Shown: in pieces, positions 20,553 through 28,034 of the stretch
Numbering within the stretch: position 1 is the first letter of the stretch
Layout of the letters: each line of letters opens with the position of its first letter
Origin: Picosynechococcus sp. PCC 7003
GTDB lineage: Bacteria > Cyanobacteriota > Cyanobacteriia > Cyanobacteriales > MRBY01
Length of the DNA stretch: 64,000 nucleotides
Assembly: GCF_001693255.1 (NCBI RefSeq)
Contig: NZ_CP016474.1
Span: forward strand, 1,258,661-1,322,660
Reading direction: 5' to 3'
The notes under the pieces: generated by a model
Seen by the model: the letters and a program-made list of their open reading frames with translations, nothing else
Database searches by the model: none
Told to the model about the DNA's origin: nothing
Position numbers and translations under genes: made by a program

Positions 20553-22607
20553 ATGAATAAATTTCGCGTTGAAGTGCTCCGTTCTACCCCCAACCCCCAA
20601 CAAACCATCTGGAGTGCCATGCACCAGGACTACTGTGAGGAATTTGTGTGGGAACAACAGAGTAATTTTCCAGACGAGCAAAAAGCAGGGGAGTTAATTA
20701 TTAAACATCTTTTGGCGGGTGGTCGCGGTCACTATGGCCCCCTCGAACATCCTCAGATTGTTTTTAACGTCGGCTATTTCCCCCATTCGATGATGCAGCA
20801 AATTCGGACTCATCGCGTTGGCGTCTCCTTTGATGTGCAGTGTCTCGCCGGGGATACGGAAGTCACCTTTGTCCAAGCCTCTGGATCTCTCCGCAAAATC
20901 AAAATCAGTGATCTCCATGACCTTTGGCACAACGGAGAAAAAGCGGTGCGAGAACGTAAAATTCGTGGCCGCAAAGGCGAACAGCCAGGATTTTACCGCC
21001 GTGACTGTAAAACTCGCTTGCGCAAAATGTCATTAAGGGTGCTGAACGAGGACACTGGTAATTTTGAAATTGGCCATCTCCAAGATGTCATGAATAGCGG
21101 TGAGCAGCCCGTTTATCGTCTGACTTTGGCGGATGGCAAAACCCTTGATTGCACTGTTAACCACCGTCTCTACACAACCCAAGGCTGGCAACGCATGGGA
21201 GAAGCCCTGGGTTTAGTGACTGATACAGATCATCAAGTCTTGGCAGTGACAAAAACCTGCGAAGTCATGACCAATGGTGTTGTCCGTCCCGATGCCCTCT
21301 ATAGTCAGCAATCTTGGTTAGCAGCCCAGGTAAAACAGGGATTAACTGCTCGGCAAATTGCTAATATCTGTGACTGTTCCCCAGACGTGATTCGTCATTG
21401 GGCAAAGAAATTTCAATTAAAACTTCCTGCTGGTCATCAACGAGGCCTAAAAACAGTGGTTGGAAATGGCCGTTATCGTAATCGCGCCTGGTTAGAACAG
21501 CAGCTTGAACAGGGGTTACATACAGATGAAATTGCGGCTTTAGCCAATTGCTCCATTGAGGCAGTGAAGAAATGGACTTATCATTACGGTCTTCAGCTCA
21601 ACAAACGTCCATCTGGAACAAAACAACCTTGGAACAAAGGTTTAACGGGTTATCGCCTTGCCTTGTCTGAGACAGCCATGGAAACACGACGGCGGAATGC
21701 GCGACGTTTCACCAAACGTGGTGCAGATTCCCATTTTTGGAGAGGAGGCACTGCCACAGAACGGCAACACATTGGGGCATGGACGCGACAAATTGCGCCA
21801 CAAGTCCATGCAAAATTCAACTATATTTGTCAGTCTTGTGGCCAGCAAGGGGGACAATTACAAGCCCATCATCTTGTACCCGTTTTTGCAGATCAATCCC
21901 TCGCCTATGAATTTGAGAATTTAGTTTCTCTTTGTCAGAGCTGCCACCAATATCTACATCACAATCATTTAGAGGCGGATTTTGCTCAGCAGTTTCAACC
22001 GATTCGAGAACCCAAAACATGGGCCGCAAAACCGAAACCCAAGGGGCGTCGTTTAAAAGCGCATCCGGTGAAGGTCGTTGCTGTGGAATATCTTGGGATC
22101 CAGCCCACCTATGATCTGGAAGTACAAGGGCCTTGGCATAACTTTGTGGCGAATGGTGTTGTCGTGCACAATTCTTTCCGCTATACAGGACAGCGGATTA
22201 TTGATGTGGCAGAAGGCAAGCGGGACGTGGAAGAAGTCTTCTATCTGCGGCCTGTGGGGAAGTATGACAACCGTCAAGGGAAAAAATATTTTTACTCAGA
22301 AGAGCAACGCCAGGCGGATAAGGAATGGTGCCTGGCCGCCTGCGATCGCTATCGGCAACGGATCGAAGAAGGCTTGGCAGAGGAGCACGCCCGGAGTTTG
22401 ATTCCTTTTGATGCGCGGCAACATTTTGTCATGAGTTGCAATGTGCGATCGCTGATGCATTTATTAGATTTGCGCTGGAAAAAGGACGCCCAACTCGAAG
22501 CCCAACAACTCTGTGAATTATTATTTGTTCATTTTGAGACTTGGTGTCCAGAAATTGCGGCTTGGTACCACAAAAATCGCGCCCAAAAAGCACGCCTGTC
22601 ACCTTAA
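20553..22607 (+). CDS. thyX: Flavin-dependent thymidylate synthase ThyX interrupted by an HNH intein
   Basis: The frame encodes 684 residues. Residues 1-96 and 541-684 join to a 240-residue ThyX, normal family length, which methylates dUMP to dTMP using FAD, NADPH and methylenetetrahydrofolate. The ThyX motif reads RTHRVGVSFDVQ up to residue 96 and continues SFRYTG at 541, so the intein sits inside the substrate-binding motif itself, directly before a conserved Ser. Without splicing the enzyme cannot fold its active site. The intein begins with Cys97 and ends VVVHN at 536-540, with Ser541 as the +1 nucleophile. dcd lies upstream; no thyA was seen in the window. Confidence 0.93.
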   Translation: MNKFRVEVLRSTPNPQQTIWSAMHQDYCEEFVWEQQSNFPDEQKAGELIIKHLLAGGRGHYGPLEHPQIVFNVGYFPHSMMQQIRTHRVGVSFDVQCLAGDTEVTFVQASGSLRKIKISDLHDLWHNGEKAVRERKIRGRKGEQPGFYRRDCKTRLRKMSLRVLNEDTGNFEIGHLQDVMNSGEQPVYRLTLADGKTLDCTVNHRLYTTQGWQRMGEALGLVTDTDHQVLAVTKTCEVMTNGVVRPDALYSQQSWLAAQVKQGLTARQIANICDCSPDVIRHWAKKFQLKLPAGHQRGLKTVVGNGRYRNRAWLEQQLEQGLHTDEIAALANCSIEAVKKWTYHYGLQLNKRPSGTKQPWNKGLTGYRLALSETAMETRRRNARRFTKRGADSHFWRGGTATERQHIGAWTRQIAPQVHAKFNYICQSCGQQGGQLQAHHLVPVFADQSLAYEFENLVSLCQSCHQYLHHNHLEADFAQQFQPIREPKTWAAKPKPKGRRLKAHPVKVVAVEYLGIQPTYDLEVQGPWHNFVANGVVVHNSFRYTGQRIIDVAEGKRDVEEVFYLRPVGKYDNRQGKKYFYSEEQRQADKEWCLAACDRYRQRIEEGLAEEHARSLIPFDARQHFVMSCNVRSLMHLLDLRWKKDAQLEAQQLCELLFVHFETWCPEIAAWYHKNRAQKARLSP
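20841..22172 (+). mobile_element. ThyX intein with two HTH repeats, NUMOD3-like motif and HNH endonuclease
   Basis: This 444-residue intein (residues 97-540 of the precursor) has block A CLAGDTEVTF, block B TLDCTVNHRLYT (the splicing His), block F TYDLEVQGPWHNFVANG and block G VVVHN before Ser+1. Between them lie two similar helix-turn-helix units (about 254-290, QGLTARQIANICDCSPDVI; about 313-350, QGLHTDEIAALANCSIEAV), a PWNKGLTG stretch like the NUMOD3 DNA-binding motif, and an HNH domain (about 424-470: CQSC, AHHLVP, N at 456, CQSCHQYLHH). All splicing residues look intact. Most large inteins carry LAGLIDADG homing enzymes, so the HNH type is less common. Confidence 0.88.
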
Positions 22608-22843
22608 GATTTTCTTTAGATTTTTAGGGCTGAAGACGGATAAAATTACGCAAAAGTTAACATTGCTTGGTAATCTGTAACGTTTTTTCTAAATAGATTA
22701 AATGGATGAAGCCTTTGAAAATCAAAGAATAAGGCGGATTATCCATAAATTTTGATTGTCATGGCCGGGGAATTTTGTGAAAATTCCTTAATCCTTTTGA
22801 ATTTTCCTTTTAAGATAGAAACAGTTGCTTTAACTTGGTTGTG

Positions 22844-23593
22844 ATGCCTCGAATTTTAATTATTGATGATGATCCGGCGATCGCCGAATTGGTTGCGATA
22901 AACCTTGAAATGGCGGGTTATGACGTCAGTCGTGCCGAAGACGGTATTAAAGGTCAGGCATTGGCGGTGCAGCTACAACCCGATTTGGTCATGCTCGATC
23001 TGATGTTGCCGAAAGTGGACGGGTTTACCGTGTGTCAACGCATTCGACGGGAAGAGCGCACAGCAGATATCCCCATTTTGATGTTGACCGCCCTAGGACA
23101 GACCCAAGATAAAGTGGACGGCTTTAATGCTGGGGCCGATGACTACCTCACGAAGCCCTTTGAAGTCGAAGAGATGCTAGTGAGGGTGCGGGCGCTTTTG
23201 CGACGGAGCGATCGCATTCCCCAGGCAGCCAAACACACAGAAATTTTAAACTACGGCCCTTTAACTTTAATTCCAGAGCGGTTCGAGGCGATTTGGTTTG
23301 ATCAGACTATTAAACTGACTCACCTTGAATTTGAGTTGCTCCACTGTCTCCTCCAGCGCCATGGCCAGACCATTTCTCCCAGTGAAATCCTCAAGGAAGT
23401 GTGGGGTTACGATCCCTCCGATGATATCGAGACCATCCGGGTGCACGTCCGTCACCTGCGCACTAAGCTAGAACCAGAGCCCCGTCGTCCCCAATACATC
23501 AAAACCGTTTATGGGGCGGGTTACTGTCTGGAGTTGCCCTCACGGGTGAACCACGGAGAGACCCACCATATCTCGGAACCGATGAACTCCTAG
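22844..23593 (+). CDS. rpaA: OmpR-family response regulator RpaA
   Basis: From ATG 22844 (a GTG lies one codon earlier) the 249-residue protein has an N-terminal receiver domain with IDDDP, the phospho-acceptor Asp in [14 protein letters not shown], Thr in MLTALGQ and Lys in LTKPFE, then a winged-helix DNA-binding domain ending [11 protein letters not shown]. The sequence matches what I recall of RpaA, the clock-output regulator phosphorylated by SasA that drives circadian gene expression, rather than RpaB. After the family's usual end it has about 15 extra residues ([16 protein letters not shown]). The last dozen codons lie inside a 107-bp tandem duplication. Confidence 0.85.
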
Positions 23594-23770
23594 ACCTAAG
23601 CTTACCTTTCGTTGAATTAGTCAGTAATCAAAGGTAATGGAGGCAACGGAGTCCCCAACTTCTAGAGACCCACCATATCTCGGAACCGATGAACTCCTAG
23701 ACCTAAGCTTACCTTTCGTTGAATTAGTCAGTAATCAAAGGTAATGGAGGCAACGGAGTCCCCAACTTCT
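23557..23770. repeat. Exact 107-bp tandem duplication (2 copies)
   Basis: Copy 1 is 23557-23663 and copy 2 is 23664-23770, identical base for base and directly adjacent. Each copy contains the last 12 codons and stop of rpaA and the last 11 codons and stop of the convergent gene. It also holds an inverted repeat TTACCTTT...AAAGGTAA (23602-23609 with 23630-23637; 23709-23716 with 23737-23744). Neither gene is broken, because each uses the copy nearer to it. The period is not a multiple of three. Confidence 0.95.
23602..23637. terminator. Inverted repeat between rpaA and the convergent gene, copy 1
   Basis: TTACCTTT pairs with AAAGGTAA over a 20-nt loop. It lies just after the rpaA stop and is repeated exactly at 23709-23744. 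There is no run of T longer than three, so it may act as a weak bidirectional terminator or only protect 3' ends. Confidence 0.35.
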
Positions 23771-24412
23771 GAGGCGATCGCCCCGGGCAAAACGGCCACA
23801 CAGTACCTGGGAGAGTAACCAGCGTTTTAGGGGAGCTTGCCATTGTCGCAGTAAAGCCTGTAGCCCCCAACCGAGCAGGCCTAACGCGATAGGAACGAGG
23901 ATAAAAAGTAGGGGCTGCGTCATCAGCGTTGACCAACTTAAGATCACAGAAATCAAGACAAAGGCGATCGCCAAGGGCCAGGCGAGACAACTTAAACCAT
24001 ACTTTCGTTGTCGCCAGGGTAATTGCGCCAATAATTGCCCGATAAACCACCCTTGAATTTCCGCTAACTGTTGATAAAGGGAAGGAGACGTCAACAGATC
24101 CGCCACCATTTGGTGCAACACATCGCCATCAAGGCCAATTTGGGTTTTTAAAACATTGATCCCTTCGTAACGCAACAAAAAAGAGAGGGACGCCTGGGGC
24201 CAATTACGTTTCCGAAAAAGCACATATTGTCGCCAAGCGAGGTTAAACTCATCGGTAAACGTCAGGGTTTGCCCTTGGTGTTTGAGTGCCAGGAGTTTCA
24301 AAAGAGCCTCATGATCCAACACAAATAAAACCCCGTGGCAGAGCGTGGACTGCGGTGGCGTCGTTAGCGGTTCTTGATCCAGTTGGATGTAGGGGTGAGC
24401 GGAAACAGTCAC
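23735..24412 (-). CDS. Unknown membrane protein with two C-terminal helices
   Basis: I do not recognise this 225-residue protein. The first 140 residues look soluble and helical; two hydrophobic segments follow (about residues 143-161 and 168-188), and the C-terminus is basic (about 35 residues, many Arg and Trp). That layout places the N-terminal domain in the cytoplasm and a helical hairpin in the membrane. The stop codon lies inside copy 2 of the 107-bp duplication. The next gene upstream on the same strand (24449-25216) is 36 bp away and also unknown, so the two, and perhaps the acidic protein before them, may form one transcription unit. Confidence 0.65.
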   Translation of the reverse strand: MTVSAHPYIQLDQEPLTTPPQSTLCHGVLFVLDHEALLKLLALKHQGQTLTFTDEFNLAWRQYVLFRKRNWPQASLSFLLRYEGINVLKTQIGLDGDVLHQMVADLLTSPSLYQQLAEIQGWFIGQLLAQLPWRQRKYGLSCLAWPLAIAFVLISVILSWSTLMTQPLLFILVPIALGLLGWGLQALLRQWQAPLKRWLLSQVLCGRFARGDRLRSWGLRCLHYL

Positions 24413-24448
24413 GGGAGGAAGGGCAACAAGATTAAATGACGGGGGAAG

Positions 24449-25216
24449 CTATTGGGGTTTGACAAGGGTCGCTCCATGGGGATTTGGCCGAGCTTTGGGC
24501 GTTTGTCGATTGGGTTTAGGCTGTCGTTTTAAGATTCCTTGAATGAGGCTGATAAAAAATCCAAGTAACCCCTGCCATTGCTGTTCACTGGTTTGGATAT
24601 TGTGCTGGTGGGCCTGGAGGATTGTCGTGCAGTGGGGATGGGTCATGAGCGCTTCGGCGTAGGTATTCATAATGGTGCCATCCAGTTGCAGGATCGTTTT
24701 CGCGTAAATAATGCCTTCTGTTGGCGTTTGTTTTGCCTGTTGGTGTTGTCGTTTGCGTTGGTCAAGGGCAATTTTGAGTTCCCCTAGCTTGCGCAGGCAA
24801 CAGAGAAATTGGCGATCGCCGAGGAGATGCTGGAGTTGCTGTTGGTCTTGGGCATCACCCGTGGGATTGGGGAGTGCGGGTAGAGGGCCGGAACTTTCGG
24901 AGCGATATAAAGGGTGCGTCGGTTCCCTGAGAAGGGCCTGGTATTGTCGCTCTAGTTGCGATCGCAAATTGCCGTAGGCCGCCTGTAGATCGGGGGGGCA
25001 ATGCTGCGGACTGAGGGTATCTTCGCTGAGATAATACAAATCCTGGTACACCTCCCGGGGAATGAATCGCTGACCATCAATGGCATCAACCACCATCGTG
25101 CTGACCTCTAGGGTGGTGGCATCCAGAAAAACCTGATTTAGAGCCTGGATAAATTGGTGCATGGCAACGGCGGGCTGGAGCTGAGGGGATTTAGCTTCGG
25201 GGGCAGAACGATTCAT
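24449..25216 (-). CDS. Unknown soluble Gln-rich protein
   Basis: ATG 25216 (MNRSAPEAKS) is preferred; an upstream in-frame ATG at 25249 would add 11 residues with no sign of conservation. The 255-residue product is hydrophilic, rich in Gln, His and Leu, and mainly helical, with a central stretch LRKLGELKIALDQRKRQHQQ. A short hydrophobic stretch LLGFFISLIQGILK near the end could be amphipathic, and the last 30 residues are Pro/Lys rich. No signal peptide or known domain is visible. It sits between two other unassigned genes on the same strand. Confidence 0.65.
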   Translation of the reverse strand: MNRSAPEAKSPQLQPAVAMHQFIQALNQVFLDATTLEVSTMVVDAIDGQRFIPREVYQDLYYLSEDTLSPQHCPPDLQAAYGNLRSQLERQYQALLREPTHPLYRSESSGPLPALPNPTGDAQDQQQLQHLLGDRQFLCCLRKLGELKIALDQRKRQHQQAKQTPTEGIIYAKTILQLDGTIMNTYAEALMTHPHCTTILQAHQHNIQTSEQQWQGLLGFFISLIQGILKRQPKPNRQTPKARPNPHGATLVKPQ

Positions 25217-25274
25217 GGGAGACCAACAAATGGGATGAAAATGAAACAATTGGGAGCGTGCTTAGCATAGGTAC

Positions 25275-28034
25275 CTAGGGCTCTTCTTCTAGGAAAAGGA
25301 GCTCTTCGTCTCCAAGATCAAGGTCATCAAAGTCCTTGCTATCGAAGGCATTCAGTTCTTCTAAATCCGCCAGGGCTTCGTCTAAGTCCAGATCATCTAG
25401 GGGGGCGATCGCCTCATCAGTGGTGGATAGATCAATGGCGCTTTCTTGATCCGACTTATCGAAGTTGGCGCTATCGACCGCAGAATTCCCCTCATCGAGG
25501 CCAAGATCAAAATCAGGATCCAGCTCACCCGACAGATCAAGTTCCTCTAACCAACTATCATCGGTGAAATCATTGGTCGGGGCGGCCGCCGCATCATGGT
25601 GATGATTGACATCGCTGGTGCCATGGCTTTCGTTGTCTAGGGAAGGTAGATCGACCGTAAGGTCAAGATCGTCATCCAAAAGGGTCATGGTCTCCAGTGG
25701 CAGATTCTGGGGGTCAAGATCGAGGTCTAAGTCATCAAAACTTAGGGCCGCAGCATCTAACAAATTCAGGTCGTCTGGCTGCTGGAAATCTGCCTGAATC
25801 ACCGTCTCTTTGCTGAACTCACGAGCCTCAAAGTCGTGTGAATTTTCCTGGTCATCAAGGGCCTCGGTGTCAAGCTCAGAGAGGTGGTCTTGATCGAGGT
25901 CAAAGTCGAGCAATGCTGATTCATCGAATTCCCCTAGGTTAAAGATATCTTCGTCTTCTTCTCCTAGGTCGGTCATCTCCGACAGCCAAGCATCCTGATC
26001 TTGATCCGTAGTGGATTCTGGGGAGGCATCAGGAGCGCTAGAGGAGGCTGCCGCATTAATGTCTTCCGTGAAGTCTTGCTGTTCGAAGTCTAAATCCAAG
26101 GATGTATCGAGAGAATCAAGGGTCATTTCCCCCGATAGATCCATCTGTTCGAGGTCAAACTCAAAATCATCGGGTTGATCGAAGTCTTCCTCGAATAAAG
26201 CGTCTGTGGCTTCTAGGGAATCGGTATCTAACCCAGAATCGTCACTGATGCTGTCGGCAGGATCCATTTCCATTGGTTCGAGGTCAAGCTCAAAATCACT
26301 GAGGAGATCGAAGTCTTCCTCGGCTAACGGATCGGCTGTGGCTAAGGGATCAGCCTCGAGATCAAAATCAGCGTCGACGCCATCGGGATCAAGGTCAATG
26401 TCAATGTCAATGTCTCCATCGTTCTCTAAGTCTAGATCCAGGGCCAATTCTGAACTGTCAAAGTCTGGGGCATTTAAGGGGCCAAGGGTATTTTCGTCTA
26501 AATCTGTGGGAAAGATGTTGAATTCAAAAGCATCCAAATCCTCTAGATCCGTGGGCAGATATTGGTGATCTGCAACGGTATCCTCAGGGGCCCCTGCTTC
26601 GGTGGTTGCAATGAGCATTTCTTCATTACTCTCCAGGAGGTCGTCTAAGCCAGACACCGCGAAAGACTCTAGTTGTTCTAAATCAGAGGCCGTTAACTCT
26701 AATTCGTCACCAGCTAAGGCATCATCTGTAGTCAACTCTGACGACGGTTCAGGGTCGTAATCAAAATCGGTAGTGATAACATCCGGGAAGGGTTCGGTGA
26801 GGCGATCGCCAAGTTCATCTTCTGGGAGTTCTCCGAGGGCCAGATCTTCTGGGAAAAGATCCTCCTCAAAGTCGGCAGTCGTTTCGTCTAAGTCTTCTAA
26901 ATCTTCTAATCCCTCTAAGTCTTCTTCTCCATCACCCGCCTTAGTCTCTGCCTCTGATAGATCGGGTAAAGCCTCCGTTTCAGCGGCCAATTCCTGCTCT
27001 AGCCAATTTTCCGGGAGGGGCGGTAGAGGTAATTGGCTTGTCTCGGGCCCATCGAGGGATGTGACTTCCGTGACACCTGGGTGATTATGCCAATCCTGAC
27101 TCAAAAACGTAAATAAAGTCTCATCATCGACCGTATCTAGATCTGCCGTTTCTGGCGATGTCACCGCCTCAGTCATGGGAGTTTCTGGGTCTTCGAGTAA
27201 GTCTTCTAACCCTAAATCATCCTCTAAATTGCCTAAGTCTGCCTGGGCGGCGATCGCCTCATCTCCGAAGGGATCGCTGTCTACTTCAAAATCTGCCAAG
27301 TTGGGAACATAGGCATCCGGGCGATCGCCGTTGGCTCGTTCTACAGCCGTGGTATCAATGGGCGTCTCCCAAGCTTCAATCCCTGGGACATCATTGGCCG
27401 TTAGGGCCGCATCTGGGGTTTCATCCAGGGCAATATCTGCAAAATTGTCTAAAAAGTTGAGGGAATCAGAATCGGTTAAATCTTCGTTCTTTTCTGGGAC
27501 TACATCGGGCTGAGATTTTGAAACAGCTTCCATCGGCGCACTCGGCGCAACCGTTGGCAGGGCATGGTCGTCCTGTGGCGGCGTTGTTGTGAAAGGTTCA
27601 ACAACCTTAACCGTTGCGGCCATGAGGGTTTGGTTCGGTATTTCAAGGAATTTCAGGTCTAGGGGTTCCTCCGCATTCATTAAACGGTCATACTGCTGCA
27701 AAGTCACAAGCAACTGAAATAGCTGTTGCAAACCCTGGAAGTTTTCTTGAATTTTACGGTGACTTAGGGCAACTTGCTGTTGGTGAAAATGCTGGAGATT
27801 TTGGTACTGAGCAGTATTGAGTACGGCCTCACCAACGTCATTTTCCACGGTTCCATTGATGAGATCGACTTGGGTATGGAGGCTGCTATTGGGAGGGTAG
27901 GGTTCGCCCTGGTTCGGATCACGGACAATTCGAGTCGTAATATTTAGGATTGCTGCCTTACTCGCCACCATCGTAAAGGCTTTGGAAAGGTCGCCGCTGC
28001 GGAGAGCTTGCTTAAATTCATCGCTTAAGGACAT
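25275..28034 (-). CDS. Very acidic 919-residue protein with Asp/Leu repeats
   Basis: The first 120 residues are ordinary and helical (MSLSDEFKQALRSGDLSKAF ... HFHQQQVALSHRKIQENFQ) and probably form a folded domain of the kind found in other cyanobacterial proteins with this start. From about residue 190 to the end the chain is dominated by Asp, Glu, Leu, Phe and Ser, in loose repeats of the type DLDLDLE, LEDLEDLDE, DDFEFDLEQMD and FDLLSDFELDLEPMD. There are almost no Lys or Arg residues there, so the calculated charge would be strongly negative. No membrane segment or signal is seen. It may be a disordered scaffold or a cation/protein-binding protein; this is inference. The repeats also create long false frames on the opposite strand. 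Confidence 0.75.
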   Translation of the reverse strand: MSLSDEFKQALRSGDLSKAFTMVASKAAILNITTRIVRDPNQGEPYPPNSSLHTQVDLINGTVENDVGEAVLNTAQYQNLQHFHQQQVALSHRKIQENFQGLQQLFQLLVTLQQYDRLMNAEEPLDLKFLEIPNQTLMAATVKVVEPFTTTPPQDDHALPTVAPSAPMEAVSKSQPDVVPEKNEDLTDSDSLNFLDNFADIALDETPDAALTANDVPGIEAWETPIDTTAVERANGDRPDAYVPNLADFEVDSDPFGDEAIAAQADLGNLEDDLGLEDLLEDPETPMTEAVTSPETADLDTVDDETLFTFLSQDWHNHPGVTEVTSLDGPETSQLPLPPLPENWLEQELAAETEALPDLSEAETKAGDGEEDLEGLEDLEDLDETTADFEEDLFPEDLALGELPEDELGDRLTEPFPDVITTDFDYDPEPSSELTTDDALAGDELELTASDLEQLESFAVSGLDDLLESNEEMLIATTEAGAPEDTVADHQYLPTDLEDLDAFEFNIFPTDLDENTLGPLNAPDFDSSELALDLDLENDGDIDIDIDLDPDGVDADFDLEADPLATADPLAEEDFDLLSDFELDLEPMEMDPADSISDDSGLDTDSLEATDALFEEDFDQPDDFEFDLEQMDLSGEMTLDSLDTSLDLDFEQQDFTEDINAAASSSAPDASPESTTDQDQDAWLSEMTDLGEEDEDIFNLGEFDESALLDFDLDQDHLSELDTEALDDQENSHDFEAREFSKETVIQADFQQPDDLNLLDAAALSFDDLDLDLDPQNLPLETMTLLDDDLDLTVDLPSLDNESHGTSDVNHHHDAAAAPTNDFTDDSWLEELDLSGELDPDFDLGLDEGNSAVDSANFDKSDQESAIDLSTTDEAIAPLDDLDLDEALADLEELNAFDSKDFDDLDLGDEELLFLEEEP

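Follow-up and report, generated by a model that had tools for sequence, protein, structure and literature searches.

An exact 107-bp tandem repeat at the convergent 3' ends of rpaA and its neighbor in Picosynechococcus sp. PCC 7003: a probable recent, near-neutral duplication

Why does the same 107-bp stretch stand twice, side by side, at the end of the rpaA gene of Picosynechococcus sp. PCC 7003, and does the second copy serve either of the two genes that converge there? In the window (the whole stretch of DNA analyzed, 64,000 nucleotides), identical and directly adjacent direct repeats of 107 nt occupy positions 23557 to 23663 (copy 1) and 23664 to 23770 (copy 2), with a spacing of 107 and an identity of 100%, exactly the tandem duplication that the sequence-only reading had described where rpaA and a convergent gene end. 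That 107 consecutive bases are identical side by side cannot be chance. Tandem Repeats Finder reported five tandem arrays in the 64-kb window, among which this one had by far the longest unit and was alone in reaching 100% matches. A published description of this duplication was not found in the literature searched for it or for its kind.

The gene on the left (positions 22844 to 23593, + strand) codes for a 249-aa response regulator with a receiver domain and a DNA-binding domain (Trans_reg_C). The name rpaA, assigned earlier from the letters, was borne out, given that the best PDB match of the product was a chain named RpaA (E value of 2.4e-140); the NCBIfam RpaB model scored 222.5, below its cutoff of 330. 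Its convergent neighbor (positions 23735 to 24412, - strand) is a 225-aa open reading frame (ORF) for which neither Pfam nor NCBIfam yielded a match at E values of up to 0.001; a conserved counterpart exists in PCC 7117 (of 678 bases, 602 identical and 76 mismatched). The 107-bp unit starts with the last base of an rpaA codon, followed by the last 11 codons and the stop, and the ORF positions confirmed that the stop codons of both genes are present in each copy. Copy 1 carries the 3' end that rpaA uses, with its TAG at 23591 to 23593, and copy 2 carries the one used by the convergent gene, which ends in HYL followed by a TGA stop at 23735 to 23737. Since the rpaA stop is used in one copy and that of the convergent gene in the other, neither protein is altered. 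The stop-to-stop gap is 141 bp, where a single-copy state would give 34 bp. A 35-aa ORF that spans the copy junction (positions 23637 to 23744, + strand) was made by the junction and has no other support.

Two further features of this neighborhood were observed. The tail of RpaA after the residues SRV (window positions 23549 to 23593) is 14 residues long, as is that of PCC 7117 (NHGETTQVSEPMNS, translated by eye), while the tail differs in genus genome G004 and is two residues long in G001 and G003. Upstream of rpaA, thyX (positions 20553 to 22607, + strand) is split by an intein that carries an HNH endonuclease domain, as indicated by matches to Thy1, Intein_splicing, and HNH that exceeded their cutoffs, together with matches to thyX and intein models.

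The rpaA region was present in all six genus genomes searched, PCC 7003 included, and none of the other five had a tandem repeat (unit of 20 to 399, at least 85%) at the rpaA loci fetched. PCC 7117, in which the two matched pieces of the window had identities of 90% and 88%, has one homologous copy that aligns across the 107-bp unit (80 identities, 26 mismatches, and 2 gap columns), retains both stops, and leaves a stop-to-stop gap of 34 bp. For comparison, an average nucleotide identity (ANI) of 90.03% between PCC 7003 and PCC 11901 has been published (PMC7205611). G004 also has one copy, judging by its sequence and by a match, less strong, to the convergent gene. Nothing past the end of rpaA matched the window in G001 and G003, so that the 107-bp unit has no counterpart in those two genomes. 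The survey was extended to 80 rpaA loci (the best 80 of 584, PCC 7117 and G005 among them), from 150 bases before to 600 bases after the rpaA stop, with two loci (L065 and L090) reaching only 108 and 369 bases past it, and a comparable duplication was found in none of them. Short-period repeats were seen near the rpaA stop in 8 of these best 80 of 584 loci, with periods of 20 to 80 that were mostly multiples of short units.

Two adjacent direct copies in PCC 7003 and a single-copy state in relatives are what a recent chromosomal tandem duplication leaves behind. Given the single copy in PCC 7117 and nothing comparable in the five genus genomes or the 80 loci, the duplication is derived in the PCC 7003 lineage. 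The earlier reading had called it either recent or maintained. Recency held, with no tandem repeat in any of the five other genus genomes and a single homologous copy in PCC 7117, and maintenance fell, as no relative examined has two copies; an old or maintained feature was thus ruled out by the 80 rpaA loci and the five genomes. The JC distance to PCC 7117 over the 107-bp unit was 0.297, and there were zero differences between the two copies. Under a simple clock, with the divergence from PCC 7117 set at 100%, the duplication would have an age of at most about 9% (95% bound), a figure that would loosen if gene conversion had acted between the copies.

We consider it likely that this is an ordinary, near-neutral, and recent tandem duplication in the PCC 7003 lineage, and we infer that it is present in the living strain. 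In a single illegitimate event, a 107-bp stretch over both gene ends would have been duplicated head to tail. Microhomology is lacking, as not one base is shared at the breakpoints on either side, and the copy may have arisen through, for instance, a template switch or end joining in the course of repair; slippage between short flanking repeats was ruled out by this lack of shared bases. After such an event, with the unit starting within rpaA and ending within its neighbor, each gene would still run on to the stop that belongs to it, rpaA through copy 1 and the convergent gene through copy 2. The sole change would be in the spacing between the stops, from 34 to 141 bp, and the duplication would have been close to neutral, tolerated rather than selected. 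The spontaneous tandem duplications of Salmonella (PMC3411829) are similar in that the PCC 7003 repeat is also a recent head-to-tail direct copy in the chromosome, and by the same likeness it could be expected to collapse by recombination. It is plausible that the duplication is unstable and varies between strains, as had been proposed. In contrast, the PCC 7003 repeat is just 107 bp long and has no endpoint homology, while in the Salmonella study every experimentally confirmed rearrangement had endpoint repeats, in a screen that selected for longer microhomology (PMC3411829). Endpoints without microhomology are less usual and, to that extent, count against a real duplication.

The main rival is an assembly artifact, an untrimmed 107-bp overlap left by the joining of contigs or the closure of the chromosome and then moved to midsequence by rotation to dnaA, which we regard as unlikely, although deserving of more weight than any other alternative. 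The first base of the chromosome contig is also that of a GTG ORF with a match to the DnaA equivalog model TIGR00362 (465.6 bits versus a cutoff of 343.9), so the chromosome was evidently rotated, and this gives room for a badly trimmed closure. The value of 107 is a k-mer size in some assemblers, and we found no account in the literature of how PCC 7003 was sequenced. Edges without microhomology are also what an overlap of fixed length would leave, but chance alone would give them in roughly every second random join, and they therefore say little. On the other hand, the ends of the chromosome contig have no exact overlap of 10 to 200 bases, and the plasmids of 34,738 and 253,256 bp, analyzed whole and across their ends, have no exact tandem duplication with a unit of 20 to 2,999 bases. 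Position was considered as well. Among random 107-bp intervals drawn from the 64-kb window and 60 chromosome stretches, 954,870 of 1,257,473 (75.9%) fell entirely within a single ORF of 100 aa or more, which a duplication there would alter; the interval duplicated here is not of this kind. Both stops of a convergent pair were covered by 10,324 (0.8%). A random join would thus land wholly within an ORF in some three cases out of four. If selection had filtered the event, a place outside ORFs would be expected; the repeat has such a place, and a real event is mildly favored by it.

The surroundings of the repeat in the rest of the genome (an assembly of 3,345,085 bases) bear on both readings. 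In 65 chromosome stretches (1.344 Mb, with about 4 kb counted twice), no isolated exact two-copy repeat was seen besides the 107-bp one; the remaining exact arrays with a unit of at least 30 belonged to three families (37 bp, 38 bp, and 47/93/94 bp). Its isolation in these 1.344 Mb is in favor of an artifact, namely, a single assembly slip. A search of both plasmids and the 65 stretches for systematic artifacts of 107-bp overlap gave no other, a result with which a single artifact would be compatible. Samples of 400 kb from PCC 7117 and from G004 contained no exact array with a unit of at least 30, which fits a low common rate. Neither a third copy of the unit in the PCC 7003 genome (E value of up to 0.001) nor a match in plasmid or phage collections (E value of up to 1e-5) was found, ruling out a mobile element or a genome-wide or interspersed repeat. 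A scan of viral contigs with RpaA gave 14 pattern matches, none of which was confirmed.

Other tandem arrays of the genome were of several kinds. On the chromosome contig (G000:C1), an array of a 47-bp unit with about 8 copies and 88% matches lies at positions 2006576 to 2006949 (L130:6576-6949), with no frame open through it. An exact array of a 38-bp unit has about 3 copies (L159:14475-14591), and one of a 37-bp unit, also exact, has 2.2 copies (L122:10603-10685). The latter two sit, as judged by eye, among short inverted repeats of the CCCCTC/GAGGGG type, which are perhaps a dispersed repeat family. The 253-kb plasmid (G000:C3; L102/L104-L115) has several imperfect tandem arrays, among them one with a 150-bp unit and 3.7 copies (C3:172766-173320) and one with a 110-bp unit, 3.9 copies, and 94% matches (C3:102972-103404). 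Tandem repeats of such a size are, given the 110-bp array, not foreign to the PCC 7003 genome.

A second question is whether the two copies have a function, namely, the doubling of a shared 3' structure (a bidirectional terminator or alternative RNA hairpins) that would tune rpaA and its convergent neighbor. This seems very improbable to us. As previously noted from the sequence, each copy contains an inverted repeat, of 8 bp (TTACCTTT/AAAGGTAA, with a loop of 20 nt), which spans the space between the stops (positions 23602 to 23637 in copy 1, where the arms 23602 to 23609 and 23630 to 23637 pair, and 23709 to 23744 in copy 2). The structure is thus present twice, but it is weak, since 67 of 2,000 dinucleotide shuffles of the unit had a perfect inverted repeat of at least 8 bp with a loop of 3 to 30. 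Neither was a G+C-rich short-loop hairpin followed by a T run, the form of an intrinsic bidirectional terminator, found at this stem. Between positions 23400 and 24000, there were no terminator-like sites (0.6 expected in shuffles), using a pattern restricted to loops of 3 to 8 that leaves a 20-nt loop outside, and no promoter-like sites either (again 0.6 expected in shuffles).

Predicted folds gave a similar picture. With both copies present, the plus strand is predicted to pair across copies and the minus strand within each copy, which would suit alternative hairpins, but fold energies were at the level of dinucleotide shuffles, both for one copy (z of 0.09 for the plus strand and -0.45 for the minus strand) and for two (z of 0.03 and -0.34). 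The best fold value came from the minus strand of a 56-nt core (z of -1.36; -0.67 for the other strand), and even here 19 of 200 shuffles folded as well, with 49 of 200 for the other strand. A search of Rfam with positions 22000 to 25500 gave no match at E values of up to 1. In PCC 7117, the plus strand is still predicted to form a hairpin at the same spot, broken into four pairs, a mismatch, and four pairs, so that a trace of the putative hairpin persists. However, its z value was 0.40, at shuffle level like that of the other strand (-0.77), and the longest perfect inverted repeat of the PCC 7117 unit has only 6 bp and lies at a different place. Since the right arm of the hairpin lies partly in the final codons of the convergent gene and is already constrained by them, its conservation would be explained without any function of the hairpin. 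None of the relatives examined has two copies. A terminator or a structured RNA thus gained no support from the site scan, folding, or Rfam, and the suggestion that the four arms could pair in alternative ways with regulatory effect did not stand. We found nothing in support of a regulatory role for the duplication.

We give the least credence of all to a reversible polymorphism between strains, driven by recombination, in which the state of the repeat would alter the overlap or termination of the converging transcripts and hence the expression of the circadian regulator rpaA in the two-copy form.

An ordinary recent duplication is therefore the reading that we retain, and the locus calls for caution: however striking an exact repeat next to so well known a gene may be, one recent duplication, or an assembly slip, accounts for it and leaves both proteins intact. 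A repeat that proved real could serve as a convenient natural marker with which to follow how stable short tandem repeats are in PCC 7003. Were the 3' ends of rpaA transcripts altered by it, nature would have provided an experiment on the tolerance of a clock output gene to changes around it.
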